NCBI GenBank assembly: GCA_002104985.1
Contig: MCGO01000012.1
Location: 310,001-374,000 of the forward strand
DNA length: 64,000 nt
Reading direction: 5' to 3'
Source of the DNA: Rhizoclosmatium globosum
Taxonomy: Eukaryota > Chytridiomycota > Chytridiomycetes > Chytridiales > Chytriomycetaceae
The notes beneath the pieces were generated by a model. The model ran no database searches. It was not told the origin of the DNA and was given only the letters and a program-made list of their open reading frames with translations. How positions within the stretch are numbered: the first letter of the stretch is position 1; every line of letters begins with the position of its first letter. The translations under genes were made by a program, and so were the position numbers. Positions 42,624-64,000 of the stretch are shown here, piece by piece.

Positions 42624-45153
42624 ATGTTGCATGCCACCTCAGCTGCCCATCTTCACGCAGCACAAAACTTAAAGCAGCAATCAACTCTAGAAGAAAATCG
42701 GCCCATTATAGCTGCCGGTGGAGAGCTGGACAGGTGGCTACTTATTCTGGGAAACAAAGAACAGCTACACCGCGTTGAGAAGGTTATCTTGGCTGATGAC
42801 AGATTATATCCAAATTATATTCCACCAGAAGATGAAACAAGTTCATCCGTGTTCACGAGAATACGACCATTGTCTATGGTCGCCATCGACTCAACATACT
42901 CTTTCCAGCAACAACAGCTTGAGCAATTGAAGATATTCTTGCGTTCGCCGAGTGCTTTAATATATGAAGCGTTCTGGCTTATACTTGCGGCCTCTATTCG
43001 AAAATATCCAGAATACAAAAAGGACTTAGGAAAGAATTCAAGTATTCTAGCTCGAGTACGTCAACTGCAAGAGAGTCGCCTTCACGATAGAGCTATTACA
43101 ATATCAATGGAAGGATTTCCGTCTGGTGAACTGGGTCCAAGGAGGGCGGCAATGCTTTACGTATCAGCTTTGATTGATCAAGTACCAGACACAGTAGTCT
43201 CATCCTATGGAAGAATCCTTCCATTCTTACGTGAATCCGTAACTCATAAGAGAATAGATCCCGTGATATTGACTCTATCTGTAAATTGTATCCATAGTTT
43301 GAGTTATGACAATAAGAGACGAAGCGCTTATTTGAACACAGGATTATTTGGAGAGTTATGGACACTGTTGCAAAATTCTTGTACAGAAGCGTTCAAACAC
43401 GATTTCTTTGATAACGTTTCCGAAACCCATTACCACACCCTTTGCAGTGGATTAAGGATTCAGTTGACTGCAATATTAAAAATTTTAATGAAAGACGATG
43501 CATTTGACTTAAAAGAAGTGGAGCGTAGTCTTATTCAGGGGTGTGATCCTTGGATTTGGATTTTGAAAAACTCGGAACAAAACGAAGAAGTTGCCCACGT
43601 TAGTATCAATATATACCCACAAATTAGTTTATTAATTATTATGCTAGGTACTTCAAATGCTTTCTTTCCTGATACAACATGATCATACTGGATATTCAAC
43701 AGTTATTTCGATACTTCCGTCTTTGCTAGAAAATGCGGACAGCTTCAGTGATCTTGTTAAATATTTCAGTTTAAAGACCCTTAAAACTTGTTTGGCTAAG
43801 TTTCCGACTCTTTGGGCCACAATTTACACTCTTAGGGAAAGCATCTTATTCGATCTAAGTAAGATGCTGACATCCAAACCTAATGAGTTTATATCTCTAT
43901 CACTCTCAATATTACGAGACTTGACTTGCATTTCGGATGAGTCCGTCTACGAAAGTGAAAAGTTGTTCAATTCTGACCCAATCAATCCTCGTAAGAAAAG
44001 GCAGAGCTTGTTTCCTGGATCATCCAAAGCTCCAACTAGTGTTGACGTGAATAAGCTCGGCAAGAACAATGCGCCTGATCCTCGATTGCTCGTATTTTCC
44101 CATATTTCGCCACAACTCACTCGTATTATCCAGAATCCAACAAGTTGGTCCAAAACTATAGTGCACTACGCACTAGGAATCATTTGCAATTTCTCAGTGA
44201 ACGATTATTTGTCACAACAAATCGCTCACATTCCAGATGTCATCAAGTCCATTTTCCGGTTGTTTCAAGATTCAAGGCAAAAGATCAATAGTTCAAAAAG
44301 CATGAGCCGAGCGACAAGTACAGTTCAAGTCGCATCCAACATGTTGTACTCAGTTCGGAATACGCCAAAACAATCAGAAGTACAACTAGCGACATCCACA
44401 TCAAATCAACCATCTCTATCCGTCACATCAGCTGTACCCATCATAACCACCTCTTCTCTTAATGAGAAAGAGGGCTCAAAACCGTCCGATACAGATATTT
44501 TACTGGATTGTTTGTGTTGTTTCAGGAACCTTTGTATAGATGAATACGCTTGCCTGGAAATTCTAAACATGGCTAGTCCTATTTTCCTGAAAATGTTGGC
44601 AGAGAATTCAGCGCACTCGTATACACACAGGGTGTCATTATCGGTTCTGCGAAATCTGGTGCTTCAGAATAACCAGTGCCTCAATCGATTACTCTATGGA
44701 GATGACGAAGAAGTAAATGCGTACGCAGATACTGGATTTGTTGATGAAGTGGTTGTGGCACTTTCGGCAAAAAATGAACGTGAGGGCCAAATTTGCGCAA
44801 TCGACATTGTCGAAAAGATGATAAAAGATGGAGGAGATATTTGCAAGAAAGCTCTTATAGATGCTGGCTGCCTTACGGCTCTTCTGATTCCTATGAATGA
44901 TTCTAAACCAGATCATCACACTGAAAAGGCCGCACAATGCTTTACAATCCTTAAAGAATACCAAGACGCAAATATGATTGATATATGGACCCGATTGAGG
45001 AACGAATGGAACTCTAAAGATACCGAAAGAGCAAAGAAGGCACTCGCAGAAGCTGCGGAAAAGTTGAGGGTGTCGACCAGAAAGTCTCGTACTTCCAAAT
45101 CCAAAAAAGTTGAAGCAAAACCAAGACCCTCATCGAAAAAGAAAACAAAATGA
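42624..45153 (+). CDS. Large helical-repeat (armadillo-like) protein of unknown function
   Basis: Two exons. Exon 1 starts MLHATSAAHLHAAQNLKQQS; a 57-bp intron near 43601-43647 (GTTAGT...GCTAG) joins VAH to VLQMLSFLIQHDHTG. Together about 825 residues, nearly all helical, with Leu/Ile-rich helices such as CIHSLSYDNKRRSAYLNTGLFGELWTLL and SWSKTIVHYALGIICNFSVNDYLS that suggest armadillo or HEAT-type packing. Ser-rich loop near 44280-44470. The C-terminus (44990-45150) is a Lys/Ser-rich basic tail ending KPRPSSKKKTK. I cannot assign a family. Confidence 0.65.
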
Positions 45154-45209
45154 AAGAGAATAAAGGGATTCATTTGATTTCACCCTTCAACAAAAACATT
45201 CACTCAAAA

Positions 45210-46100
45210 ATGATTTCCTTCCCCTCCCTTCAGTTAGACTATGGCCTTCCCCAACTCAAGGCAGAGCCATTAGAATTCGATGAGTATTTGAACGATGCTG
45301 CAATGTGCCTTGCCGACGAAGTATTGGCATCATTGGATTTAATAATGTATCTCACATCACAACCAGATTGAAAGCAACTGCGGCTCTGACGCTTCCATTA
45401 TCAGTAGAAGTAGCAGTATTTTAACAGATGGACCAGAATTTGATGGATTGATGGAAGCTACCTTCAATGCAATCGTAAGACGTTGTCCCCTTCATAAATG
45501 TTTTGCCCTTCATACCCCTAACCACACTCCAGGACATACGTTCCATCATGCCAGAATTCATGGATAACAACTTTATGAAGATGAATGCTGATGCGTTGCA
45601 GCGTGATATCGATCAAGAGATGATGAAGTTGGAGGTTGAAGAATTGTGTTTGAGCTTGGAGGGAAAGCCAGTCACAGTATCAAATCACTCTGAATCAGAA
45701 CTTTACTCATGTGATAAGCCAGATTTGTTTATGGGTATGGCTCTAGCTTGGACACGTGCAAAGGACTCCCTTTTGAAAGGTATTTAATTCCTCCTTCATC
45801 AACTTCCCTAAACATCAAACATGCCAGATCAACTCCAGGTTGGATGCCACAGGCTCGCAGACGATGGCAGACTTAATCAATACAATACTATCCTCTCTAA
45901 AACGCAAGAAAAGGTTTGCTCTTGTTGCTGTTCAAAACTCTGTTGTTGAGACCATTTTATAGATTCAAGAGAAAGTCCATGCCTTCAAGATTAATTCTCA
46001 CGAGAAGAATAATGCTCATCTTCAGGTTATTAACGCTGTCAACGCGAGTGTCGGTGCGCTGATTGCCATCAACTTTGGGAAAGAGACAGCCCAGCATTGA
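45210..46100 (+). CDS. Small helical/coiled-coil protein of unknown function
   Basis: Five exons deduced from consistent phases: ATG 45210 (MISFPSLQLDYGLPQLKAEP), introns near 45322-45369, 45474-45531, 45780-45825 and 45914-45961, stop TGA 45 098+1000 i.e. 46098-46100. The joined protein has about 205 residues. The middle is acidic and helical (RDIDQEMMKLEVEELCLSL). The C-terminal half (DQLQVGCHRLADDGRLNQYN, TILSKTQEKIQEKVHAF, NAHLQVINAVNASVGALI) is an amphipathic coiled coil reminiscent of small BLOC/BORC-type subunits, but I do not recognise it. It begins 56 bp after the preceding stop. Confidence 0.6.
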
Positions 46101-46208
46101 TATCGCATCACATCAGTAAGACAAGAATATCATAAATTTAGTATTAGTAGTGCATTTATTCAATAGTAGTACCGCCCAGTAGACTGTGCAAAATAAAGTC
46201 CATTCATT

Positions 46209-48022
46209 TCACAACTTCAACTTTGTTCTCAATTGCTTGAATGCATATAAATGTACGGGTCGAACAACAGTGATAGAGTCACAGCAGTCTGAACCTGCGT
46301 TGTCTGCATAAAGGTGAGATGATGGTCGATAGGCCACAACTCCATGATGAATCAATGAACGCAGAACCAAGACAGCTTCAGAACGAGAGTCTGGTCTAAG
46401 CCGGTGGAGAATATCAACTGCTTGGTTGAAGCGAAGATGGCGAGTGTTTGACGAAGCCATTGCATCAAACAAAGCAAGGGATTCCTCGAATGTCCAAAGT
46501 GGAGAATCCCGGTTTTGCAAAACAGACGAGATATCACTTGTTTTTGAAATCATGGTAGGATCTAACATCAATTCCAGCCACCTCATGGATGCTGTCACAT
46601 CTGGAAAGCCGCCAAGTGCTTCAAGGAAAATTTCGCGTTTGGTTTCTGGTGTCTGAGCCGCTTTCAACTTTCGCTCCAAATCAGCCACATTGTGTCTAAA
46701 TATCATATAGTCAGCAGCACCAATCAAATCCTAATGAGCAGGTTAATTGTATCGTTTCGTGAGACGAATTCTCACCATAGCACGCCCACCAAACATATTG
46801 TAGACGTCATCGACGCATTCTTCTGCGACCTTCAAGAGTTCACTCTGCTCTTTTGCATACTTTTCTTCAACTTTTTCCCACGGCGCCTTTTCAGGTTTAT
46901 ACATTCCAGAAAGCTCACGGACACGTTCCAAGTAGTGGTCATGGGCCTCTTCAGCTGAAAGGTCTCCAAAAGCAATGACCGCTACTAATTCTTGGGCAGC
47001 CAATGGAAGCATGAACTCATAAACGAAAGCTGAATTCATTACCATCACCACACTTATACGTCTCTCACTACGAGACAAGGCAGACATGTGGTTAAAGAAC
47101 ATTGACAAAGCCTTTTTCCCAACTGAATTTCCTGCCAATTGAGCTAGACTATCGACACCATCAACAATACATGTGCAGCCATCAGGAACCATTCGCGTAG
47201 TTGCCTCCAGAACACGATAAAACGTGCTTAAAATTTGAATCTCATCTTCCAGAGCCGGAAGCTTTGACTTTGGCATGCTTTCCGTAACACTTTCAGCCCA
47301 GTTTCCCATGATGGCAACAGAAATCCCAGTTAAGAGACCCACGAGACTTTCAGCAACGGTACGAAGAATGCCTCCATAATCTTGATCCATCTGATTTGCC
47401 CAAAGTCGTACGTCCAAAGACAAGGCATTATCATTCAAGTCAATGTATCTGACGGGAGCAGCGAAGTCAAAAGTTTCGTACTCAAGATCCCCAAATCCAA
47501 ACGCACGGCGGACGGCCTGAGTACCAAGTCTCTTAACTGGCGGAACTACGCATACAATCCGCGGCGCTGCCTGGGTCACTCTTTGGATCATGTGGATAAC
47601 TTCTGATTGCACCGGCTCAACCAGAACCTCGCGACCTTCCCTCTCTTGATCCTGACTACGACTTGAAAGGAAGTAGAAAATGGTACTGGTGATGTACGAA
47701 ATAGCGTCGTTGCTGGGCACGGGAGTATTGATCCTCGACCGCTTCTGTCCCGCCTCAGCATACTTTACTCTGGGCTTGCTCTTGCCGCGCTTTCCGCCCG
47801 GGCGACTGACTTTGCCGCCGACTTGCATTTCCTGTGCATATCGTTAGGTTTAAGTGCGGCACGCCCAATTTACCCAACCTCATAGTTGTGTCGCTTCTTT
47901 GAAATGGCCACGACTCCTGCGATACCAGCTACGACTCCGACTCCGATCGCTGCAGATTGTGTTGGATTCAGTCGGATGCGATCCGCGGTTTGGATCAGAA
48001 ATGAACCGACGTCGTCTAACAT
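46209..48022 (-). CDS. Membrane-anchored ATPase-fold protein with winged-helix C-terminus
   Basis: The first exon (ATG 48022) encodes MLDDVGSFLIQTADRIRLN and one transmembrane helix (AAIGVGVVAGIAGVVAI), ending KKRHNYE; an intron (about 47876-47832) joins to EMQVGGKVSRPGGKRGK. The large exon resembles a STAND/ORC-type AAA+ fold: Walker B-like TCIVDGVDSLAQ near 47165 and sensor-1-like VVMVMNSAFVYEF near 47045. No Walker A (GxxxxGK) is present where expected (VCVVPPVKRLGTQ), so ATP binding may be lost. After another intron (about 46774-46730) the end has ADYMIFRHNVADLERKL and a winged-helix-like segment (AVDILHRLRPDSRSEAVLVL). About 560 residues. Family not identified; a mitochondrial or ER membrane location is possible. 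Confidence 0.6.
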
Positions 48023-48567
48023 TCTGTGAAAAGAAATCAACACTGAGTGAGAAAAAAGTGATATTACGCATAGAACATAAAAAACATATATATATAATAA
48101 ATGACAATGGCCTGGTCCCAAGATATCTTTGTCAACCAATTTACTGCAAAATCAATTTACCTAGTCTCGACTACTGATATGACATTGGGAAGTTTCAGAA
48201 TGATGAGGAAATGGAATAATACAGCCATATCAAAGTCTTTAATATTGAGAGATGTTCCGAATCACATTGATAACATTGAGTAAATGTGACTGTGTGGGTG
48301 ATGAGGCTTGCTCTGCTCAAGGTTCCACGCTACGAACTCAGGCAAAACATGCACCTTCAGAAAGAAGTGAAGCGGTCTCATGTCAGACAATTGACTTCAT
48401 CTGCACCTCCACACATGATCAGCTAAAATGAAGATTTAAAGTGACACAGCACGTGCGGCTCGGGCCTTTTCATCTGAAAAAGAGGGAGATCCAAACTGAT
48501 AAAAAATTTCCGAAAAGCATCTGCCCAACCCTCCTTTTCGCCCCCTTTTTGCGAACAAAACAAAAGA
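48023..48567. other. 545-bp gap between divergent genes, no gene seen
   Basis: The longest gene-free stretch in the window. It separates the ATG of the ATPase-fold gene (minus) from that of the MATE gene (plus). It contains a TATATATATA run near 48088-48098 that could serve as a TATA element. A GTGATGAGGC sequence near 48297 resembles a C box, but no convincing box C/D partner or guide structure was found. The short open frames in it have no coding character. It probably holds the two promoters and 5' leaders. Confidence 0.4.
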
Positions 48568-53500: not shown

Positions 53501-54583
53501 ATTTTCCTGTTTGAATTCTTCAGGTTCGTTCGTTTGCATCAACGGTTCAACGGCATGAGTAGCATTCTCATTAATAGCCGAAGCTCCAAGCTCCAAAGAA
53601 AATTCGGAGGGAGCGGTGCGAGCAAGAGAAAGCTTGTCGTCATCAGCGCCAGCATCAGAGTCAGAGTCAGTTTCGGTATCCGCGTCATTCGAAGATTCCA
53701 ACAGCATAGATTTAGAGACTGAGTCGATCAAAGCATCCATGAGAGGATCCAAGAATGGATTCTAGTAGTTAGTTAGTTGAGTGAGTGAGACTAATTTGTT
53801 TTGTTTGTCGATGACAGAAATGGGTGGCGAAGTTGGTGAATGATGTGGAAGTGGAAGGGCAAGACACCCACCTCAACACGGTTGCTGTCATGGATGGGAG
53901 ACAGTGGATCGCCATTGTCCATGTCTTCGTAGATTGCTTCGACGGACTCGACATTAGACGCGGCCTCAAGTTCGTTCTCGTTCTCGTTCTCGTTTGTTGA
54001 TTCTTCGGAGTCGCTCTTTTCGTCGTCGCCGCGAATCAGGACCGAGGCCACGAGTTTGGCGTGTTCATCGTCGTTGTCGTTGTCGTTGTCGTCGATGTCC
54101 GAGTGCGGCGCGGCAGACGACACGACTTCAAAGTCGGATTCGTTGTCTGAGTGCGAGTGCGTGTCTGTCGAGGCCGAAGACACAGTCACAGGCGCAACAA
54201 ACGGAACAAGCGACAGACGAACGGCCGCCGTTGTCGCTGCGGCGGAGAAGAGGAGCAGCGCAAGGTCGCTGGTGTTCTTGTTGTTAGCACCCACCAACAA
54301 CCGCAACACGCAACAACAAACAGTTAACATGTCGCAAAACAGCAACTCACCCGTCAGTGTGGAGCACTCCGCCGCCCTCGCTCGAAACACTGAACGCCGA
54401 ATCAGTTGGAAGCCCAAACAGCTCGCGCAACTTGGTCGTCAACGCGGACACCGACGAGTTGGTCTCGGGCCACGTGAACCGCCGGAGCCCGAGAGACGAC
54501 GTGGAGTAGTGCGATACCTTGAACACAACTGTGCGTGTTGTCGACGACATTGTCATCCCGGTAGTGCCACCCGATGTTGACAT
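50575..54583 (-). CDS. PB1 - six ZZ fingers - UBA protein, NBR1/p62-like autophagy receptor candidate
   Basis: The N-terminal exon (ATG 54583, or 54550) encodes a PB1-like segment: TTRTVVFKVSHYS, LRRFTWPETNSSVSALTTKL, then after an intron (about 54350-54277) DLALLLFSAA. Acidic, Ser/Glu-rich linkers follow. A His/Pro-rich stretch (about 52720-52480) precedes six ZZ zinc fingers in three tandem pairs: about 52440-52160, 52040-51720 and 51560-51230 (pattern CDGC...RYKCxxCPDFDLCxxCF). The last 90 residues contain a UBA-like helix set (EYELQQVSLFEMGFINTALNVELLRAYKGDLVAVSEQL) and end DDEDSVFGDLY, an acidic stretch followed by F-x-x-L, a possible Atg8-interacting motif. PB1, ZZ and UBA together define SQSTM1/NBR1-type receptors; those have one ZZ. 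No four-tryptophan NBR1 domain was seen. About five introns. Confidence 0.8.
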
Positions 54584-54719
54584 CTTTGTTTTGGTTGGGG
54601 AAATCTTGGGATTCCACGATTCCATCAACGTGGCTCCCCTTTTGTTGGAGACTCGTGGCTTCTCCACCTTTTGCAACTCCACACTGCTGCTTGGGAACTA
54701 TTTCACCATTTATTACTTA

Positions 54720-56382
54720 TTATCCCGCAACTGGCACTAACTTTGTGGCTGCCCCGAGCCAAACCATCAGTCGAAATGCTTGTACAATAAGCACTGTTCC
54801 AACGACATCTCCTGTCGCTGTGATCAGTGAGAAAATATAGTTCTTGAGGGTGTTTCAAGTTAGTATGGCTTCCAATCGAACACATTCAACCAATAAACTC
54901 ACATCAGGATCCATTTCCCGTTTCCATAGTGCGCATGCCAAGACTGCTGTCAATCGTAAAAGGAAAATGGCAAGAGAACACGCGGCCGCAAAATAGAGAA
55001 TGACAAACTGGAAACTAACAACTGCCGCACCAATGCCAAATGTTGCAACAAGTGCAAGAAATATCAATTGGGCAGGGACATTGATCATAAACAGTGCAAT
55101 AGGAGTTGTATATCCAAGACTAATAAGCTTATTCGGTACGAATCCAGGTGGGTATTGATGCAACTCCGTTGAAATCTTGGACGCATAAATACATGCTAAA
55201 TTGCCGCAGATTCCATTCATAACGGGTACGAGTACGGCAAGTCCTGCATACGAATCGATGCTGTTTCCCAACACTATTCCAGCCAAGGACGAAATTAACA
55301 TTGCGGTAAACAGCGGAGACCATCCCGTCATCAAGACATCCTTCACATGCTTATTTCTTAACACCAAAAAGACCCTATCAATTCACTGTTAACAAACCCA
55401 ACAACCAAACTCACGCAAAGAAGAAAACTCACCACAACGGCAACAACGACAACGAAAACACAATCAACAAAACTCCAATCGACGAATCAATAACAGCATT
55501 TAACCCCGTCGCCACAGCCGCCAAAAGCAACAACGTAATCAAATCCCCCATACTCGCAGCAACAGGCGTCGCAATATTATCCGGATCCACATTCAATATC
55601 CGACACACAATCACAGTCCCACACATAACCCCTCCCAAAAACATACTCGCCACACAAGCCGTCAAAATCCCCGCCGCACATATCAACGCCGTCTCTTTCG
55701 CATGCAGAAACGTCCCCTCCACAAACCCAGAAACCGTCAAACTCCACGTCGATGCCAATCCTGATACACACGCGGCTTGCACCTGCAGCAGCGCCATGTT
55801 CCCAAACACGAGTTCCCATCGTGATGTCGGTTTATCCAGAAGACCCAGGTTCGCGGCTGTGGAGAGACGAGAGGCTAAGTTCATTTCGAGGTTTCCTTTG
55901 AGTCCAAGGAGTGTTGGGACCTAATAACAGGTATGGATGGGTTGGTTCAAGCACGCCTCTTTTTTGAACTTCAGTAACTCACAAGGATAAAGAGTTCAGG
56001 CACTCGTTCAAAGACTGTCCATTTCTGTAAAGCGTCTAGTAGTGTACCCGCAAGCATAAGACCTCCTACAAGTCAAAGATTTTGGGTTAGTTCACTGAAA
56101 CATTCGCACACAACAACAAACTCTCGATCTGCACTCACCAAGTGACAGTAAAACACTCGGCATGGCTTCACTGATCAACTTGACTCCTCCTGAATCAACG
56201 GGTCCAGAGGTTTGTTGGTTTGGTGACTGTTTGAACGGCGAAGGGGCTCTCGACAGTTCTGAGTCGGGTGTAGCGTATCCTGAAACTTCGTGCTCGGAAA
56301 GAGATCGGCTAGGACTGCTGTGGATTGGGAGCGTTTCTTGCTGTTTCCGTCGGATTCGGCGGTATGCAAGGGCGGCCTCCAT
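54720..56382 (-). CDS. SLC41/MgtE-type divalent cation (Mg2+) transporter
   Basis: Membrane protein with two MgtE-like membrane domains. The start ATG at 56382 gives MEAALAYRRIRRKQQ and a Ser/Pro-rich N-tail; then ISEAMPSVLLSLG starts the first helix. NLEMNLASRLSTAANLGLLD near 55880 and DPDNIATPVAASMGDLITLLLLAAVA near 55580 are the SLC41 signatures of repeat 1. PVMNGICGNLACIYASKISTELHQ near 55230 and NYIFSLITATGDVVGTVLIVQAF near 54830 are the matching pair in repeat 2. The last exon ends LVPVAG with stop TAA at 54720-54722. Introns near 56130-56050, 55980-55920, 55430-55370 and 54900-54850. Confidence 0.88.
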
Positions 56383-56619
56383 TTTGATGTTTCCTTTTTG
56401 GATTTCTGGAAGAGTTGCAAATTGGCTGAAATGAAGATAATTGTCAGAAATTTCGTTCTTAATGTTTATCAAAACTATTTGTGCAATCGTGTTGACGGTT
56501 CGTGCACTGCCGGTTTTGGGTGTTCAGTATCTAGGTCATTATTCTCATATGTTAGACAGTAGGCCTTTAACAGTAGACGATGAATTAAGATCAATGAGTA
56601 ATTAACAAATTTATTCAAT

Positions 56620-58236
56620 TCAGTTCCATGCCTCAGAACAAATCTCAACAAGCTTTCCGCTTCGCACAAACTCCCAAGCCTTCTCAATATCTGGAGCCAT
56701 GAATCGGTCCTTGTCGTAAGGTGCCACACCCAACTCGTTTCTCAAGTAGGAGTATGCTTTCTCCAACACTGATGTACTCTTGAGTGGTCGCAACAAGTCC
56801 AAAGCCTGGCATGCACACAACAACTCAATAGCCAACACCTTTTCAACATTTTCCACAACCTCCAAAGCCTTTCTGGCACTGAAACCTCCCATTGACACGT
56901 GGTCTTCTTGAGCAGCAGAGGTAGAGATAGAGTCAACAGAAGCAGGGTGACAGAGAACCTTGTTCTCGGAAACAAGAGCAGCAGCCGTACAGTGAGCAAT
57001 CATGAATCCAGAGTTGAGACCACCTTCCTTGACAAGGAAAGCTGGAAGTCCAGACAAAGCTGGGTTCACAAGACGTTCGATACGACGTTCAGAGATAGAC
57101 GCGAGCTCGTGGATACCGATAGCAAGGTAATCCAAAGCCTTGGCAGGGTACTCTCCGTGGAAGTTTCCTCCAGAGATAGACTCTTGAGTGGTGTGGAAGA
57201 TCATTGGGTTGTCAGTAGCAGAGTTGATTTCAGTGGTCAAGATTCCACGAGTGAATGCAACAGTGTCGTTACAGATACCGTGCACTTGAGGTGTGCATCT
57301 CAAGGTGTAAGAGTCCTGCACCTTCTTACAGTTGGCATGACTCAATCCAAGCTCAGATCGAACACCACTCGACTTGTCGGTCAAAACAGCTTTAATACGT
57401 CTCGCAACTTCAATCTGACCCGCGTGAGGTCTCGCCTTGTGAATCTTTTCATCCATTGGCTTCACAGTCCCCTTCAGAACCTCCAAACTCAACGCAGTAA
57501 TCACATCCGCAGCTTCACAAGCATTCTGCGCACGGACAACAGCCTCGCTACCAAGACTGGTAATGAACTGTGTTCCGTTAATAAGCGCAAGCCCTTCCTT
57601 TGGTCCCAAGACAACAGGCTCGATCCCAAATTCCTTCAACACCTTTTTCGCATCTTCAAAGGCATTGACTTTTGGGTTCCAGACTTTTCCTTCACCGAGC
57701 ATGCCCAAGGCGAGGTGGGAGAGTGGAGCCAAGTCTCCGGAGGCGCCGACGGTTCCCTTGTATGGAACGAGGGAGAGGGTTGAGTTGTTGAACATTTGGA
57801 TCATGGTTTTTAAAGTGGAGACGCGGATGCCGGAGTAACCTTTGGCGAGGACGTTGCATCGGAGGGCAGAGAGCATACGGGTTCGTTCGATTGGGAGTGG
57901 AGCGCCAGTTCCGGCAGCGTGGGAGACAATCAAGGAGCGCTGGAGCTCTGAAAGATCCTTCTGGGCGATAGAGACGTGGGCAAAGTTTCCGAAACCTAAC
58001 AGAGTCCTGTGAATATGCAGTTTCCTTTGTGGTACATCAAAAGTTTGAAACTCACCAGTGTTGATTCCGTAAACTGGTAAGTCCTTTTCGACAATTTGGT
58101 CAATCATGTCACGAGCCAGTTGCACGTTCTTCCAGGCTTCTGGAGTCAAGTCAATGTTGTGGGTTCCTTTGGAGAGAAGAACGAGATCGTCTGGGGTCAG
58201 GGACTCTCCGTCAAGATAGATGATTGGTTTAGACAT
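56620..58236 (-). CDS. HAL: Histidine ammonia-lyase
   Basis: First step of histidine catabolism: deaminates L-histidine to urocanate. The MIO-forming tripeptide Ala-Ser-Gly is seen in GTVGASGDLAPLSHLALGMLGEG near 57735. Other family motifs: YGINTGFG (across the intron), NGTQFITSLG, QDSYTLRCTPQVHG near 57300, NSATDNP and SISGGNFHGEYPA, and EDHVSMGGFSARK near 56890. About 518 residues, the length of bacterial and protist HALs and shorter than animal HAL (about 650). One intron (57996-58055) that keeps the frame open. Start MSKPIIYLDGESL at 58236. First gene of the histidine-degradation cluster; the long upstream region is shared with no other promoter. Confidence 0.95.
   Translation of the reverse strand: MSKPIIYLDGESLTPDDLVLLSKGTHNIDLTPEAWKNVQLARDMIDQIVEKDLPVYGINTGEFQTFDVPQRKLHIHRTLLGFGNFAHVSIAQKDLSELQRSLIVSHAAGTGAPLPIERTRMLSALRCNVLAKGYSGIRVSTLKTMIQMFNNSTLSLVPYKGTVGASGDLAPLSHLALGMLGEGKVWNPKVNAFEDAKKVLKEFGIEPVVLGPKEGLALINGTQFITSLGSEAVVRAQNACEAADVITALSLEVLKGTVKPMDEKIHKARPHAGQIEVARRIKAVLTDKSSGVRSELGLSHANCKKVQDSYTLRCTPQVHGICNDTVAFTRGILTTEINSATDNPMIFHTTQESISGGNFHGEYPAKALDYLAIGIHELASISERRIERLVNPALSGLPAFLVKEGGLNSGFMIAHCTAAALVSENKVLCHPASVDSISTSAAQEDHVSMGGFSARKALEVVENVEKVLAIELLCACQALDLLRPLKSTSVLEKAYSYLRNELGVAPYDKDRFMAPDIEKAWEFVRSGKLVEICSEAWN
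57996..58055 (-). other. 60-nt stopless in-frame intron in HAL
   Basis: The interval starts GTGAGT and ends TTAG on the minus strand. It splits the invariant YGINTGFG motif between ACT-G and GT-TTC. Its length is a multiple of three and it has no stop, so an unspliced message would encode 20 extra residues next to the active site. Family conservation shows it must be spliced out for activity. Confidence 0.8.
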
Positions 58237-58594
58237 TCTACATTTGGGAGACAGTTGTTAGTTTTGAATTGGGATTGGAAATGTGATCTGAAAGGAGGCG
58301 CCTTTCAAGCAAAGAGTGATACACAGTTATTAAGACTGTCAGTTAAGAAAGAAGAGTAGGGATGTGCTAGCAGTTGAATGTTGCCTCCTTGATGACGGGC
58401 GGAGCAAGACCAATCACATTTTAGATTGAGGTCTCTTCAAACATTGGCATCCAGCCACCTGCCATATGTCCAGTCTGAAGATCCGATACAATGATACCGC
58501 GAGAGGACCTTGGATAGGATGGGAGGAACCATGAACACTACAACACACCTTCGTTGGTTCGCTGTGACTTTTTTTCGTTTTCGAGAAAATCTGT

Positions 58595-58611
58595 TGCCGC
58601 CACTCGCTTCT
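58595..58611. repeat. 17-bp motif shared with urocanase upstream region (copy 1)
   Basis: TGCCGCCACTCGCTTCT, about 360 bp upstream of the HAL ATG. It is in reverse orientation with respect to HAL transcription. An identical copy lies at 61462-61478. An exact 17-mer shared between two non-coding regions 2.9 kb apart is unlikely by chance. Confidence 0.6.
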
Positions 58612-58625
58612 CTGCAACCCGCTTC

Positions 58626-58638
58626 TTCCGAATCTCCC
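58626..58638. repeat. 13-bp motif shared with the HutI-HutG intergenic region (copy 1)
   Basis: TTCCGAATCTCCC, 14 bp from the 17-bp motif. An identical copy is at 60182-60194. A related sequence (TTCCGATATCGATCTCCC) occurs at 61441-61458, just before the second 17-bp motif, so the two motifs are also neighbours upstream of urocanase. Confidence 0.5.
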
Positions 58639-58752
58639 CGAGTTTCCATCACCAAACACAGCCTCCCTTAAAAACATTTATAATCACGGTGTCAACTTTA
58701 TAAATTCAATATATGGCTTCTCCGCCGTGATATGGGCAGCATATCACACTTT

Positions 58753-60138
58753 TCAAACAACCTTCTCTCCCTTCACGTAGACGCCACCAACAGGCGAATC
58801 AACCATTTCATAGACAACATGTGTCCACTGAGGGTCATCAACAATGACAAAGTTACCCCACTTTCCAACTTCAATACTTCCATGCAAATCACTCTTGTTC
58901 ACACTCGCCGCAGCATTCAAAGTAGCAGCCACAAGCGCCTCCGCGAGAGTCATGCGCATTGTAACAGCCGCAAGGTTCATGACGAACGGCATGGACAAGC
59001 AGTGAGCGTTCGGGTTGAAATCAGATCCAAGAGCAACGAGAACTCCATTGTCAATCATTTTTCGGGCAGGTGGAGGAGTGATACGCAGAACGTAGGCAGT
59101 GGTTGGAAGCAAGACTCCAAACACGTTTTGTGCAGCCATAGCAGCGATACCATCGTCACTGACTTCTTCCAAGTGCGAAATAGCGCGTGCTCCGATTTTG
59201 GCCCCGAGTTCAGCGGAGGCCATGTAGTTCAATTCGTCACCGTGGAAGTTAATGCACATTCCGCATGTCTTTCCAGAGGTGAGGATCGCTTCGGACTGTG
59301 TGTAATCAAAGATTCCCTTCTCCATGAAAATATCAATGTTGTCCACATAAATATCGCCGGCTTCACGGGCAGCAACGACAGCTGGGATTTGCTTCTCAAG
59401 AACGTCTTTAGTGGCTTCTTCAGGGGTAGATCCTTTTGGAACAGAGTGGGCACCGAGGAATGTAGCCGAGATATCAATTTTGTGGCTGTCCTGTGCCTTC
59501 TTGAGAACCTGGAGCATCTTAAGTTCAGTGGCTGTTTCAAGGCCGTAACCAGACTTTGCTTCAAGGAGAGTAGTTCCCTGACGGAGCATTCTGTTCAAGC
59601 GGGTGGTGAGGAGGGCTTCGAGGGTTTCGTGGGAGGCAGCACGGGTCTGAGCTACAGTGTATCCAATACCACCACCTTGCTTGTGAATGTCAAGGTATGT
59701 TGCTCCAGCGAGTTTGAGCTCAAATTCATGGACGCGGTCCCCAGCCCAAACAGGGTGAGAGTGGCCGTCACAGAAGCCTTTGCACGGTGATTGATTAGAT
59801 ACTCATATAGAAACTTAACTATAAGTACCTGGGAGAATGGATTTTCCTTCGGCATTGACGTCCTTCTCAAAGGTAGCCGTCTTGTACCAGTCCAGTTTCA
59901 GCAGCTCTTCCTCAGTTCCAACGGCGGCAATCTTTCCATCATGAGCAACAACGATGGATGCATTCGCTTTGATTGCGAGATCATTCATGTCCTTGCCTCT
60001 CTTAAACTCTTGACCAGTTGAGGAGATGCAGACGACCTATCCAGTGTGTGATAAGCTTCAGTGTCACCACAAAGTATACAAGCTTCAAACCTGAGCCGCA
60101 TTGCGCAGACGAAGACGGTGGGTGGTGGTTGGCGCCAT
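58753..60138 (-). CDS. hutI: Imidazolonepropionase
   Basis: Third step of histidine breakdown: hydrolyses imidazolone-5-propionate to N-formimino-L-glutamate. Amidohydrolase fold. The first exon (ATG 60138) gives MAPTTTHRLRLRNAAQ; an intron leads to VVCISSTGQEF. Metal-binding strand GFCDGHSHPVWAGDRVHEFE near 59770, then GGGIGYTVAQTRAASHE, EAKSGYGLETATELKML near 59560, ATFLGAHSVP, NIDIFMEKGIFD, NFHGDELNYMASAELGA near 59250, and the late ALGSDFNPNAHCLSMPFVMNLA, which carries the catalytic/metal Asp, near 59020. About 420 residues. Introns near 60095-60040 and 59828-59785. Divergent from formimidoylglutamase with 74 bp between the ATGs. Confidence 0.95.
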
Positions 60139-60181
60139 TTCTTTCTTGTTTTGGAACAAGACACAGAAGCGAAAGCCGTTG

Positions 60182-60194
60182 TTCCGAATCTCCC
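60182..60194. repeat. 13-bp motif in the HutI-HutG divergent promoter (copy 2)
   Basis: TTCCGAATCTCCC, identical to 58626-58638. It lies inside the 74-bp gap between the two start codons (60139-60212). An AGAAGCGA just upstream (60161-60168) matches the reverse complement of part of the 17-bp motif, so this short promoter may carry half of that element as well. Confidence 0.5.
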
Positions 60195-60212
60195 GATCAA
60201 ACCACCACCCAA

Positions 60213-61342
60213 ATGCCACTTGTCACAACTACCACGAAGACAGTTACTACAACAACACGCGTAGTCTCAAACACAGAGACAAGCTCTACAACACCCACTG
60301 CGCCGGCTCCTGCTCCTGCTGCTGCTCCCCAGGGTTCTGTTCCAATTGACAGGAGGGTTGCAGACCTGCTGCATCCGGGCATCGGCCGCCACGTTACCCT
60401 CATTGGCTTTCCATACGATATTGGATGCACCCGAAATGGAGGACGCCCAGGCTCTGCAGGTGGTCCCGCAGCCTTCCTTCGTTTGTTGCAGGACAGACGC
60501 ACTGGAACGGCAATCAATCCAGAGTTTGGCATTGACTTAGGCAAACTCGATATTGGTTTTTACGGCGTGATTGACGCTTCGCTTACCTTGGAAGATGGGC
60601 ACAAGGCGTTGGAGGCTGCTGTCAAGGAGGTATGCGTAATCACTGTATCATTTTGAAACTCAACAACAAATAGGCTCTCGATGCGGGCTCAATTCCATTC
60701 GTTGTTGGAGGAGGAAACGACCAATCGTATCCTAACGCTTCTGCCCTCTTGTCCCACCTCGAAACAACACCCGAAACTATTGGTGTCATCAACATTGACG
60801 CGCACCTGGACGTTCGTCCACGCACAGCTACCGGTCTTGTTCATTCTGGAACCCCATTCCGCCAGCTTCTTGAAGACCCACGTTTTGTGCATGGAGCTTC
60901 GGTCTCACCACTGGCAAACCCCAACTTTGTCGAATTTGCAGCACAAGGAAACCAATGCGCCCATTCTCATGCAGAGTACGTAAAAGCTTGTGGAGGCGAT
61001 ATTGTCTGGTTGCGTCAAATTCAGGCCACTTCGAGTGCTGCTACACTCTTTTCCGAAACGTTGGATAGAATGGGTGGAGATAAGCTGTTTGTCTCATTTG
61101 ATTTGGACGCTGTTAAATCTGCCGATGCACCGGGAGTGTCTGCTCCATCACCAATGGGTCTATCTGCCCAAGACGCTCTTGAAATCTGCTTCAATGCTGG
61201 AACCAACCCTCGCGTAGCCTTGTTTGACTTGTCCGAAATGAATCCTCTTGTGGAAGATTACAGAACTCCACGGTTGACGGCTTTCATGTTCCATTACTTC
61301 CTGATGGGCGTAGCTACCCGATTTGGTGTCGGTGCGATTTAG
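60213..61342 (+). CDS. hutG: Formimidoylglutamase (ureohydrolase family)
   Basis: Last step: hydrolyses N-formimino-L-glutamate to L-glutamate and formamide. Binuclear-manganese arginase/agmatinase family. A Thr/Val- and Ala/Pro-rich N-terminal tail of about 45 residues (MPLVTTTTKTVTTTTRVV) precedes VTLIGFPYDIGCTRNGGRPGS near 60396. Metal motifs: VVGGGNDQSYP near 60703 (Asn where arginase has His), INIDAHLDVRP near 60790 and SFDLDAVKSADAPG near 61092. The C-terminus has LFDLSEMNPLVED. Arginase and agmatinase are the alternatives; the NDQS variant of the first motif and the neighbours support formimidoylglutamase. One intron (about 60631-60673). Confidence 0.9.
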
Positions 61343-61806
61343 AGCCTGTTCCGGATCCAAATAAAGCTCATCCACTCGCTTCTAAGGCTTGCACGATTAG
61401 TAAATCAGAAATGAAAATGAAAAATACTCGTTCCGTGACCTTCCGATATCGATCTCCCAAATGCCGCCACTCGCTTCTGTGTTTTTTCAGAAAATCGTAG
61501 CCTCCCAAAAAAAGCATCAACGAAAAGGTTTGCATTAGTCCCTCCAACCCTTAATGTGATAGCCAGACAGGTTACTAGAGAGAAAGAGTTAGAAAGGGAT
61601 CGGTCAAGGAAGGAGAGGATGTCACTAACCAAAGCGCTCAAATCAGAGTGATGGTCTTGTTCCGAGAAATGAGGCGCCTCCTCATCCAACACTCTCCCTC
61701 CTTAATAGAGCTCAAACCTCACTATTCTGGATTATAACCTTCTATCGCCTCTCTGACTCACGGCCATGCATCTCTCAGCCAATCACTAACACTCCTATCA
61801 CACAGT
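61343..61806. promoter_or_regulatory. Urocanase upstream region
   Basis: A 464-bp gap between formimidoylglutamase and urocanase. It contains the second copy of the 17-bp motif (61462-61478), preceded by TTCCGATATCGATCTCCC (61441-61458). AAATAAAG near 61360 is a likely polyadenylation signal for the upstream gene. The only long open frame (minus strand) has no coding character. Confidence 0.5.
61462..61478. repeat. 17-bp motif upstream of urocanase (copy 2)
   Basis: TGCCGCCACTCGCTTCT, identical to 58595-58611, about 330 bp before the urocanase ATG. The flanks are not identical, so this is not simply a larger duplicated block. Confidence 0.6.
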
Positions 61807-63939
61807 ATGTCCCCAATCGCTGAACTTGCATACGGTATCACCGATGCCTACTACAACCTCACAGCTGAGGAAATCTTCACATCGACCCTTCCGTTCCACA
61901 TGCCCAAAGAGAACTCCAGCCTTGACAGAAGCTGAGAAGAAACTCGCCATCAAGAATGCTCTCCGATACTTCCCGCCGAGCGCCACGCTCTGCTGGCGAA
62001 GGAGTTTGCCCACGAGCTTAAAACCTTTGGTCACATCTACATGTACCGATTCAGACCCAAGAACTACGAAATGAAGGCTTACCCAATCGGAGAGTACCCA
62101 GCCAAGTGCGTCCAAGGTAATCTATCCCAACCCCCCTCTCTTTCTCTGCACTTTTAACAACTCACCATTCCACAGCTGCCGCCATCATGCTCCAAATCCA
62201 AAACAACCTCGACAAACGAGTTGCCCAATTCCCACATGAACTCATCACCTACGGAGGAAACGGATCCGTCTTCAACAACTGGGCCCAATACCACTTGACG
62301 ATGAAGTACCTCTCTGCCATGACCGAGGAACAAACCTTGGTCATGTACTCAGGACACCCACATGGTCTTTTCCCATCTAACAAGGACGCCCCACGCGCGA
62401 TCGTTACCAACGGAATGGTGATTCCAAACTACTCTGGTAGAAAGGATTACGACAAGATGTACGCGCTCGGTGTGTCGCAGTATGGTCAGATGACTGCTGG
62501 AAGTTACTGTTACATTGGTCCTCAAGGAATCGTGCACGGAACTACTATTACTGTGATGAATGCGTGCGCAAGTACTTGGGAACTGATGAAATGGCTGGAA
62601 AGGTGTTTGTCACCTCTGGTTTGGGTGGTATGTCTGGAGCTCAACCAAAGGCTGGAGTTATTGCTGGAGTTATCTGTGTTGTTGCCGAAGTTGATGGTGA
62701 GGTTTGATTTTATTAATGGTCGATTTAAGCTGATTTATTTGTTAGAGAGCGCTCTAACAAGAGACACAGCCAGGGTTGGTTGGTTGAGAAGGAGAGTGAC
62801 TTGGAGAAGGTGATTGCCCGTATCAAGGAAGCCAAGAATAACAAGATCAGCACCAGTATTGGATACCACGGAAACATTGTGGACCTCTGGGAGCGTCTCG
62901 CAAAAGAGCCAGAAAACTTGGTTGATCTTGGATCTGATCAGACCTCCCTCCACAACCCATTCGGTGGAGGTTACTACCCAGCCGGTCTCTCCTTCATGAA
63001 GCCAAGTCTTTGATGGAGCGTGACCCAGAAGCCTTCAAGGTTGAGGTTCAAAAGACTTTGCTCCGTCATATTGCGGCTGTTGATACCTTGACTGCCAAGG
63101 GAATGCGTTTCTGGGATTACGGAAATGCTTTCCTTCTTGAAGCTTCCGTGCCGGTGCTCAAGTTTTCAAGGCTCCGGGAGAATTCAAGTACCCATCCTAC
63201 GTCCAAGAATTATGGGAGACATTTTCTCTCTCGGTTTCGGTCCCTTCCGTTGGATCTGTACCTCTGGAAACCACAACGACTTGCTCAAGACCGATGAAAT
63301 CGCCAAGAAGGTTATTGAAGAGCTTATGGGTGAAAACGCTGCCTCAGTACACACCTCGGACCTCAAGTCCCAGCAACAGTACCAAGACAACCACACCTGG
63401 ATCAGCAAGTGTGACGACCACCAGCTCGTTGTCGGTTCCGAAGCCCGTATTCTCTACTGTAACGCTGAAGGCCGTTCCAGAATCGCTGTCCGCTTGAACG
63501 AGGCTATCGCAAGTGGAGAAGTATCTGCACCATTATGCTTTCCCGCGACCACCACGACGTGTCTGGAACCGATTCTCCATGGCGAGAGACCTCCAACATT
63601 TACGATGGATCAGCCTTCTGTGCTGACATGGCTGTCCACAACGCGATCGGAGACTCATTCCGTGGAGCTACCTCTGTGTCATTGCACAACGGTGGTGGTA
63701 CTGGTTGGGGTGAGGCCATGAACGGAGGATTCTTGCTCTTGTTGGATGGATCTGCGGATGCAACCCGACGGGCCAAGAGTATGCTTCACTGGGACGTCAA
63801 CAACGGAGTTTCCAGACGTGCCTGGAGTGGAAACGAATACGCTCAGCACCAGATTCAACACGCCATGAAGATTGAGCCAAACTTGACTGTTACACTCCCA
63901 CAGGGTGTTAAGGAGGATCTTTTGGATGGCTTGTTCTAA
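61807..63939 (+). CDS. hutU: Urocanate hydratase (urocanase)
   Basis: Second step: hydrates urocanate to imidazolone-5-propionate with tightly bound NAD+. Start MSPIAELAYGITDAYYNLTAEEI. Then AEKKLAIKNALRYFP, EFAHELKTFGHIYMYRFRPK near 62020, and after an intron (about 62116-62175) MLQIQNNLDKRVAQFPHELITYGGNGSVFNNW, the family signature, near 62190. The NAD site region reads LGGMSGAQPKAGVIAGV near 62620. GFGPFRWICTSGNHNDL near 63233 contains the conserved active-site Cys. The end is GATSVSLHNGGGTGWGEAMNGGF and stop TAA at 63937-63939. Full length, about 660-680 residues. Frame breaks near 61913, 61977, 62570, 63000, 63160, 63215 and 63520 are read as consensus errors. Confidence 0.93.
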
Positions 63940-64000
63940 ATTCTTTGATGTGAATAAAAAATGAATTCTTATTATGCAAACCTGATAATACAAGTGTGTC

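Follow-up and report, generated by a model that had tools for sequence, protein, structure and literature searches.

A putative histidine-degradation gene cluster of old eukaryotic enzymes in the chytrid Rhizoclosmatium globosum

Introduction

How did a chytrid come to encode the whole route from histidine to glutamate in one block of neighbouring genes, and was that block taken over from a bacterium? The question is raised by Rhizoclosmatium globosum (Chytridiomycota). In a stretch of 64,000 nucleotides (the window; positions 310001–374000 of contig C24, which has 690,343 bases in an assembly of 56.9 Mb and 420 contigs), genes for histidine ammonia-lyase (HAL), imidazolonepropionase (HutI), formiminoglutamase and urocanate hydratase (urocanase) lie at positions 56620–63939, with no recognised gene in between. 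A preliminary description of this DNA had reported four adjacent hut-type genes, two on the minus strand and two on the plus strand, and the family matches and gene models of the present study agree with it. We consider it likely, at about 85%, that the locus is a catabolic cluster of old eukaryotic enzymes that was assembled within Chytridiales rather than taken over from bacteria as an operon. The chemistry is ordinary; the surprise is that old eukaryotic genes lie clustered and carry nearly private promoter words.

Gene content and arrangement

The four gene models are as follows.

56620..58236, minus strand: histidine ammonia-lyase (HAL/HutH), 518 aa, one intron; PF00221, TIGR01225
58753..60138, minus strand: imidazolonepropionase (HutI/AMDHD1), 426 aa, two introns; TIGR01224
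60213..61342, plus strand: formiminoglutamase (presumed HutG function, Trypanosoma cruzi type), 361 aa, one intron; PF00491
61807..63939, plus strand: urocanate hydratase (HutU/UROC1 long type), 677 aa as read from haplotig C333, two introns

HAL and HutI point to the left and formiminoglutamase and urocanase to the right, forming two divergent pairs. HAL and HutI are separated by 516 bp, the start codons of HutI and formiminoglutamase by 74 bp, and formiminoglutamase and urocanase by 464 bp. The same four-gene order is present on a second haplotig, C333 (18,366 bp), of which 17.6 kb are collinear with C24 and 97.9% identical to it. A search of the whole 56.9-Mb assembly revealed one copy of each gene per haplotype: HAL and urocanase matches were restricted to C24 and C333, as were HutI matches over the cut-off (seven weaker ones lie elsewhere in the genome), while arginase-family matches were found on C24, C333 and at one further place, C135. 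The chance that three given genes lie within 7.3 kb of a fourth is approximately (14.6 kb/56.9 Mb)^3, or 2e-11. No tandem repeats were found in window positions 54000–64000, and no regulator or permease was recognised between the four genes.

Spliceosomal introns are present in all four genes, as the preliminary description had considered probable. The HAL intron (57996–58055) is hidden inside one long open reading frame; HAL looks intron-free because these 60 nt are in frame and without a stop. The remaining introns are at 59778–59828 and 60037–60090 in HutI, at 60630–60673 in formiminoglutamase, and at 62117–62175 and about 62697–62745 in urocanase.

HAL belongs to PF00221 and scored 668 bits against TIGR01225 hutH (cut-off 539) as a 536-aa translation with the intron read through. 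The spliced protein of 518 aa has the same length as P0002 and as P0001, an R. globosum protein that was the best match of the HAL query (96% identity). The HAL and formiminoglutamase models agree with the sister-species proteins (P0002 and P0121, respectively) in length and in nearly every residue. The MIO triad of HAL, Ala-Ser-Gly, lies within GTVGASGDLAPL. HutI scored 414 bits against TIGR01224 (cut-off 298), and its best solved relative is 2bb0, a structure named imidazolonepropionase (236 bits). Urocanase has the domains PF17391, PF01175 and PF17392; its joined 677-aa reading scored 404.6 bits against TIGR01228 hutU (cut-off 375), while the two pieces read from the window alone scored 114 and 78 bits.

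Family scores place HAL, urocanase and HutI in the Hut pathway in its formiminoglutamase variant. The encoded route would convert histidine to urocanate and ammonia, urocanate to imidazolonepropionate, this product to N-formimino-glutamate, and the latter to glutamate and formamide. The preliminary description had placed a formimidoylglutamase-type enzyme at the last step instead of the animal formiminotransferase. This was supported: in an exon-by-exon search, neither domain family of formiminotransferase-cyclodeaminase (FTCD; PF02971 and PF07837) matched the R. globosum genome, and FTCD was rejected as the true last step. With at least two non-homologous genes of one pathway adjacent, the locus is a fungal metabolic gene cluster, of the catabolic kind. 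It differs from a bacterial hut operon, which is co-directional, intron-free and of bacterial descent, in its introns, its divergent pairs and the eukaryotic trees of HAL and urocanase. Here a chytrid has the whole putative route encoded in one cluster, and its last enzyme is of a protist type and not the animal one.

Type and role of the formiminoglutamase

The last enzyme is not a classical bacterial HutG. It remained below the cut-off of the NCBIfam family hutG (TIGR01227; 140.7 versus 229.15 bits) and matched two structures named formimidoylglutamase weakly (3m1r, 57 bits; 1xfk, 54 bits). In contrast, it matched its best solved relative, 4mxr, named formiminoglutamase, with 282 bits over residues 61–355, and 2a0m, the sequence of which is listed as T. 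cruzi (P0221), with 281 bits. We take 3m1r and 1xfk to be bacterial and 4mxr to be from T. cruzi. The chytrid and T. cruzi enzymes have the motif GGGND in common, in which the chytrid Asn154 occupies what is presumably the position of a His metal ligand in arginases. This Asn was invariant in the 18 chosen aligned sequences. Homology over the enzyme length, together with the replacement of the His of arginases by Asn, identifies the chytrid protein as a formiminoglutamase of the T. cruzi type.

Of 182 prokaryotic relatives, 80 were kept for a scan, and the GGGND position was Asn in 41 and His in 39. At least one of HAL, HutI and HutU was present in the fetched flank of 55 of the 80, and none in 25. 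The 17 nearest relatives (L014–L030; 15 titled Nitrospin- and 2 Nitrospirae) are 45–51% identical to the chytrid enzyme and all have Asn. Because urocanase adjoins the gene in all 17 of them, and HutI also in 15, a role of the chytrid formiminoglutamase in histidine degradation has strong contextual support.

A Thr/Ala/Pro-rich N-terminal extension of approximately 50 residues is encoded at window positions 60213–60370. Similar extensions are present on the Chytriomyces and Podochytrium formiminoglutamases, and none on the listed Obelidium and Entophlyctis proteins.

Origin of the enzymes

Trees were constructed for HAL (35 rows), formiminoglutamase (46 rows) and urocanase (36 rows), using rows chosen from the 120 matches listed per search plus chosen loci; no mixture model was used for HAL and urocanase. 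The kinship of HutI is given by its family match.

In the HAL tree, eukaryotes separated from prokaryotes with support of 100/100, and two long prokaryote rows were flagged. The prokaryotes in this tree are the set fetched for formiminoglutamase, and closer bacterial HALs could exist outside this set. In the urocanase tree, chytrids and Blastocladiomycota formed a group (99/96) that lay within a clade of eukaryotes (98/91). The bacteria nearest to this clade in the set were Bacteroidota, while the urocanase of Nitrospinota was of a distant, short type. In the formiminoglutamase tree, the Nitrospinota group fell together with chytrids and other eukaryotes, apart from the remaining bacteria (100/99); the eukaryotes included Capsaspora, Paraphysoderma, Acanthamoeba, Balamuthia, Acrasis, Effrenium and trypanosomes. 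Old eukaryotic inheritance is, on these trees, well supported for HAL and urocanase and plausible for formiminoglutamase.

The preliminary description had spoken of all four steps of the bacterial-type hut pathway and had asked whether the enzymes share a bacterial or a eukaryotic origin. The four steps are complete. However, the bacterial type did not hold, because HAL and urocanase fall in eukaryotic clades and the last enzyme is of the T. cruzi type. Formiminoglutamase groups with eukaryotes and Nitrospinota, and a shared bacterial origin for the set is unsupported.

Eight chytrid rows and a row of the amoeba Arcella intermedia formed one group in the formiminoglutamase tree (100/100). The Arcella HAL (P0008) and formiminoglutamase (P0126) group with those of chytrids at 75% and 69% identity, respectively, and may possibly represent chytrid contamination of the Arcella data.

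Linkage in related genomes

Linkage in relatives was judged indirectly, by whether listed enzymes (HAL, formiminoglutamase and urocanase were searched) came from source contigs of equal size. An isolate was counted if two or more of the three enzymes were among the matches listed, at most 120 per search, and an absence from these matches is uninformative. Chytriomyces hyalinus and Entophlyctis were left out because their enzymes were listed from different isolates, Allomyces because they came from different species, and Physocladia and R. hyalinum because each had one short contig. The Chytridiales isolates counted were the following (contig size in bases).

R. globosum, contig 690343: HAL, urocanase
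Rhizoclosmatium JEL0117, contig 79714: HAL (tag 009576), formiminoglutamase (tag 009574)
Siphonaria JEL0065, contig 54813: HAL, urocanase
Podochytrium JEL0797, contig 51194: all three enzymes; HAL (tag 010714), formiminoglutamase (tag 010717)
Chytriomyces MP71, contig 40964: all three enzymes
Obelidium, contig 217560: formiminoglutamase, urocanase

Among the matches listed, source contigs were of equal size in all six isolates, or five of five without R. globosum. In JEL0117, one locus tag lies between HAL and formiminoglutamase, as expected for HutI. Outside Chytridiales, none of four lineages had all listed enzymes on one contig: source contigs differ in Paraphysoderma (HAL, formiminoglutamase), Sorochytrium (HAL, urocanase) and Balamuthia (formiminoglutamase, urocanase), and in Capsaspora, formiminoglutamase and urocanase are on scaffolds of equal size (3.8 Mb) with HAL on another. 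Linkage in relatives, a point raised in the preliminary description, recurs by this indirect measure in the five other comparable Chytridiales isolates but not in the four outside lineages.

The genes of old eukaryotic enzymes, most clearly HAL and urocanase, probably became neighbours within Chytridiales. The locus provides a clean test case for the formation of catabolic clusters in eukaryotes, since the enzymes appear to be linked in Chytridiales but unlinked in the two Blastocladiomycota compared and, in part, in Capsaspora.

Promoter regions

Three regions upstream of the genes share sequence words.

58237..58752, unstranded: HAL promoter region, with TGCCGCCACTCGCTTCT at 58595 and TTCCGAATCTCCC at 58626
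60139..60212, unstranded: divergent HutI/formiminoglutamase promoter region, 74 bp, with TTCCGAATCTCCC at 60182, and ACACAGAAGCGA
61343..61806, unstranded: urocanase promoter region, with TGCCGCCACTCGCTTCT at 61462

The 17-mer TGCCGCCACTCGCTTCT is common to the HAL and urocanase regions and TTCCGAATCTCCC to the HAL and HutI/formiminoglutamase regions, and ACACAGAAGCGA matches a 12-mer of the urocanase promoter in inverted orientation. When segment pairs of these sizes were drawn at random from the R. globosum genome, with coding and non-coding DNA mixed, words at least as long as the three observed were shared 2, 5 and 14 times in 3000 draws each. Across the 56.9-Mb genome, GCCGCCACTCGCTTCT is exact only at the HAL and urocanase promoters of both haplotypes; with one mismatch it occurs at three further places, and a reversed control pattern at none. 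TTCCGAATCTCCC has two cluster sites per haplotype and three other places in the genome (control pattern, 1), of which the C68 and C79 sites are one and the same stretch. These other sites revealed no further regulon member; they are in or beside open reading frames that look unrelated by eye, and no family search was run there.

These words suggest co-regulation, as a lead and not as proof. HutI and formiminoglutamase would share the 74-bp divergent promoter, and one regulator probably switches on all four genes through the words shared by the three regions. Joint induction would then supply nitrogen and carbon from histidine. The nearly private words provide a handle on this regulation. We are more tentative about a dedicated histidine- or urocanate-responsive regulator acting on nearly cluster-private elements of a hut 'operon' that Chytridiales would have rebuilt independently from dispersed ancestral eukaryotic genes, and in which the AASS-type gene downstream may make a five-gene block; this is possible but doubtful.

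Points against the interpretation and alternative explanations

Several observations weigh against a cluster of old eukaryotic enzymes that is intact, jointly regulated and assembled within Chytridiales. The formiminoglutamase tree has a poorly resolved backbone and drew a warning that long branches meet where eukaryotes and Nitrospinota join; early eukaryotes and Nitrospinota may therefore have exchanged this gene, whichever of them was the donor. The recurrence of linkage across Chytridiales is apparent, being read from equal contig sizes rather than from inspected loci. Both Siphonaria JEL0065 rows are labelled UNVERIFIED_CONTAM by the source, and Podochytrium JEL0797 has two locus tags, not one, between HAL and formiminoglutamase. 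CACTCGCTTCTSTG, a shorter form of the promoter word, is exact only at the cluster, but is common when one mismatch is allowed (53 matches in all; control pattern, 30). The promoter words may be remnants of a local duplication, and clustering can persist without co-regulation. Moreover, 9 single-base gaps relative to C333 break the coding frame of urocanase on C24, and one gap relative to C24 breaks that on C333. Neither copy is fully open, and we infer the intact gene from both haplotypes joined.

The cluster may be genuine and yet lack joint regulation, having been kept by drift or by a co-inheritance that avoids partial loss and the build-up of intermediates. The evidence from promoter words is statistical and from one species, which leaves room for this explanation. 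However, the words are nearly private to the cluster, and the arrangement apparently persists across genera. We therefore regard this alternative as unlikely, although it deserves to be weighed.

The frame breaks, together with a public urocanase model (P0247) that is shorter (551 aa) and 77% identical to the joined reading, may indicate a decaying pseudogene, in which case the pathway would stop at urocanate, as is reported for Aspergillus nidulans (PMC1550239), and the cluster would be relictual. We consider this improbable. C333 is open but for its one break, and the breaks in C24 are single-base gaps amid few substitutions: the four 500-bp bins of 62001–64000 contain 7 C24/C333 substitutions, versus 27 in the preceding, mostly promoter bin. 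One further single-base gap of C24 falls in a urocanase intron. Because single-base gaps outnumber substitutions inside the gene, the breaks look like uncorrected consensus errors rather than decay. Furthermore, the joined protein passes the hutU cut-off and is 82–88% identical to the urocanases of Siphonaria, Chytriomyces MP71 and Podochytrium, all of the same length of 677 aa, and of Entophlyctis (688 aa). The listed Obelidium model has 650 aa and is 72% identical. The other three genes are under constraint: between haplotypes, they differ by 37 synonymous and 8 non-synonymous changes and no gaps (first and last HAL codon and urocanase left out), with allelic ratios of non-synonymous to synonymous change (pN/pS) of 0.02 for HAL, 0.06 for HutI and 0.27 for formiminoglutamase.

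A burst of single-base gaps in C24 relative to C333 covers window positions 61807–64300, and the reverse is seen near the end of C333. This patch of poor consensus probably spoils the public model P0247.

A bacterial hut operon may also have entered the chytrid lineage whole, in a single transfer, and acquired its introns later. The four functions are identical to those of bacterial hut operons, and formiminoglutamase has bacterial relatives, mostly titled Nitrospinota, beside urocanase genes. However, the urocanases of these bacteria are only 32–37% and their imidazolonepropionases 30–35% identical to those of the chytrid, and HAL was found in none of the 17 within the fetched flank, several flanks being short. 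HAL and urocanase both fall within eukaryotes, the urocanases of chytrids and Blastocladiomycota being sister groups; in the two comparable Blastocladiomycota genomes the listed enzymes are on different contigs. The proteins do not point to a single bacterial donor, and import of the operon as a whole is not supported. Cluster formation shows no sign of wholesale bacterial transfer. Introns, the second haplotype and the trees lead us to reject such a transfer, the likelihood of which we regard as very slight, and contamination likewise.

An assembly artefact or bacterial contamination, to which the broken urocanase frame and the separately kept haplotigs might point, is the least probable explanation, given the 690-kb contig, ordinary nuclear neighbours, introns in all four genes, an identical gene order on the second haplotig and the apparent linkage in sister genera; the preliminary description was correct in taking the locus for eukaryotic.

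Relation to known systems

Searches of open-licence literature, in which subscription journals are mostly missing, revealed no account of a hut cluster from fungi or from any other eukaryote. This accords with the preliminary description, which knew of no complete cluster in a fungus-like genome, and the cluster is apparently undescribed.

The enzymes themselves are not unexpected in this lineage. In 2006, expressed sequence tags of the early-diverging fungus Blastocladiella emersonii were reported to include urocanase and an Amdhd1-like imidazolonepropionase (PMC1550239). According to the same report, fungi are apparently without urocanase activity, for which Aspergillus work is cited, Aspergillus nidulans accumulates urocanate, and such pathways were, the authors suggest, lost in later fungi. 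Those tags give no genomic arrangement, and 'formimino' does not occur in the article (PMC1550239), whereas the R. globosum genes form a cluster with formiminoglutamase.

The four-enzyme route of T. cruzi (TcHAL, TcUH, TcIP and TcFG) ends in formamide and glutamate (PMC12203737). It resembles the present one in its four steps in a eukaryote and in a formiminoglutamase of one type, with GGGND. However, the R. globosum genes are clustered, and the word 'cluster' is absent from the main text of that article (PMC12203737).

Bacterial hut operons (HutH-HutU-HutI-HutG) have the four reactions and adjacent genes in common with this locus, and also the last step where formimidoylglutamase is used. In contrast, R. 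globosum has separate intron-bearing genes, divergent pairs, no sign of a single bacterial donor and a formiminoglutamase below the hutG cut-off.

Among fungal clusters, the A. nidulans proline cluster (cited in PMC4256263) and the Trichoderma N-acetylglucosamine cluster (PMC4950302) similarly place functionally linked but evolutionarily unrelated catabolic genes side by side. The R. globosum cluster differs from both in pathway, in its chytrid host and in the lack of a recognised regulator or permease between the genes. The word histidine is absent from the main text of PMC4256263, which concerns fungal metabolic pathways.

Neighbouring genes

Upstream of the cluster are genes for an MgtE-type transporter, a ZZ-zinc-finger protein and a MatE protein, and downstream is an AASS-type gene. 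A segment of approximately 5.25 kb on C24 (window positions 42901–48153) is missing from C333 at an otherwise collinear junction, which reflects either a haplotype deletion or a misassembly of C333. Two long open frames within it had no Pfam match.

The AASS-type gene (C24:374115–377212; L012:115–3212) lies just past the window and starts approximately 175 bp after urocanase. We did not accept it as a fifth member under joint regulation, since no word of more than 10 bases is common to the region upstream of it and the cluster promoters. It has a lysine-ketoglutarate reductase part followed by a saccharopine dehydrogenase part, and AASS is another enzyme leading from an amino acid to glutamate, in lysine degradation. 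Other strong saccharopine-dehydrogenase matches are present on C131, C379 and C368.

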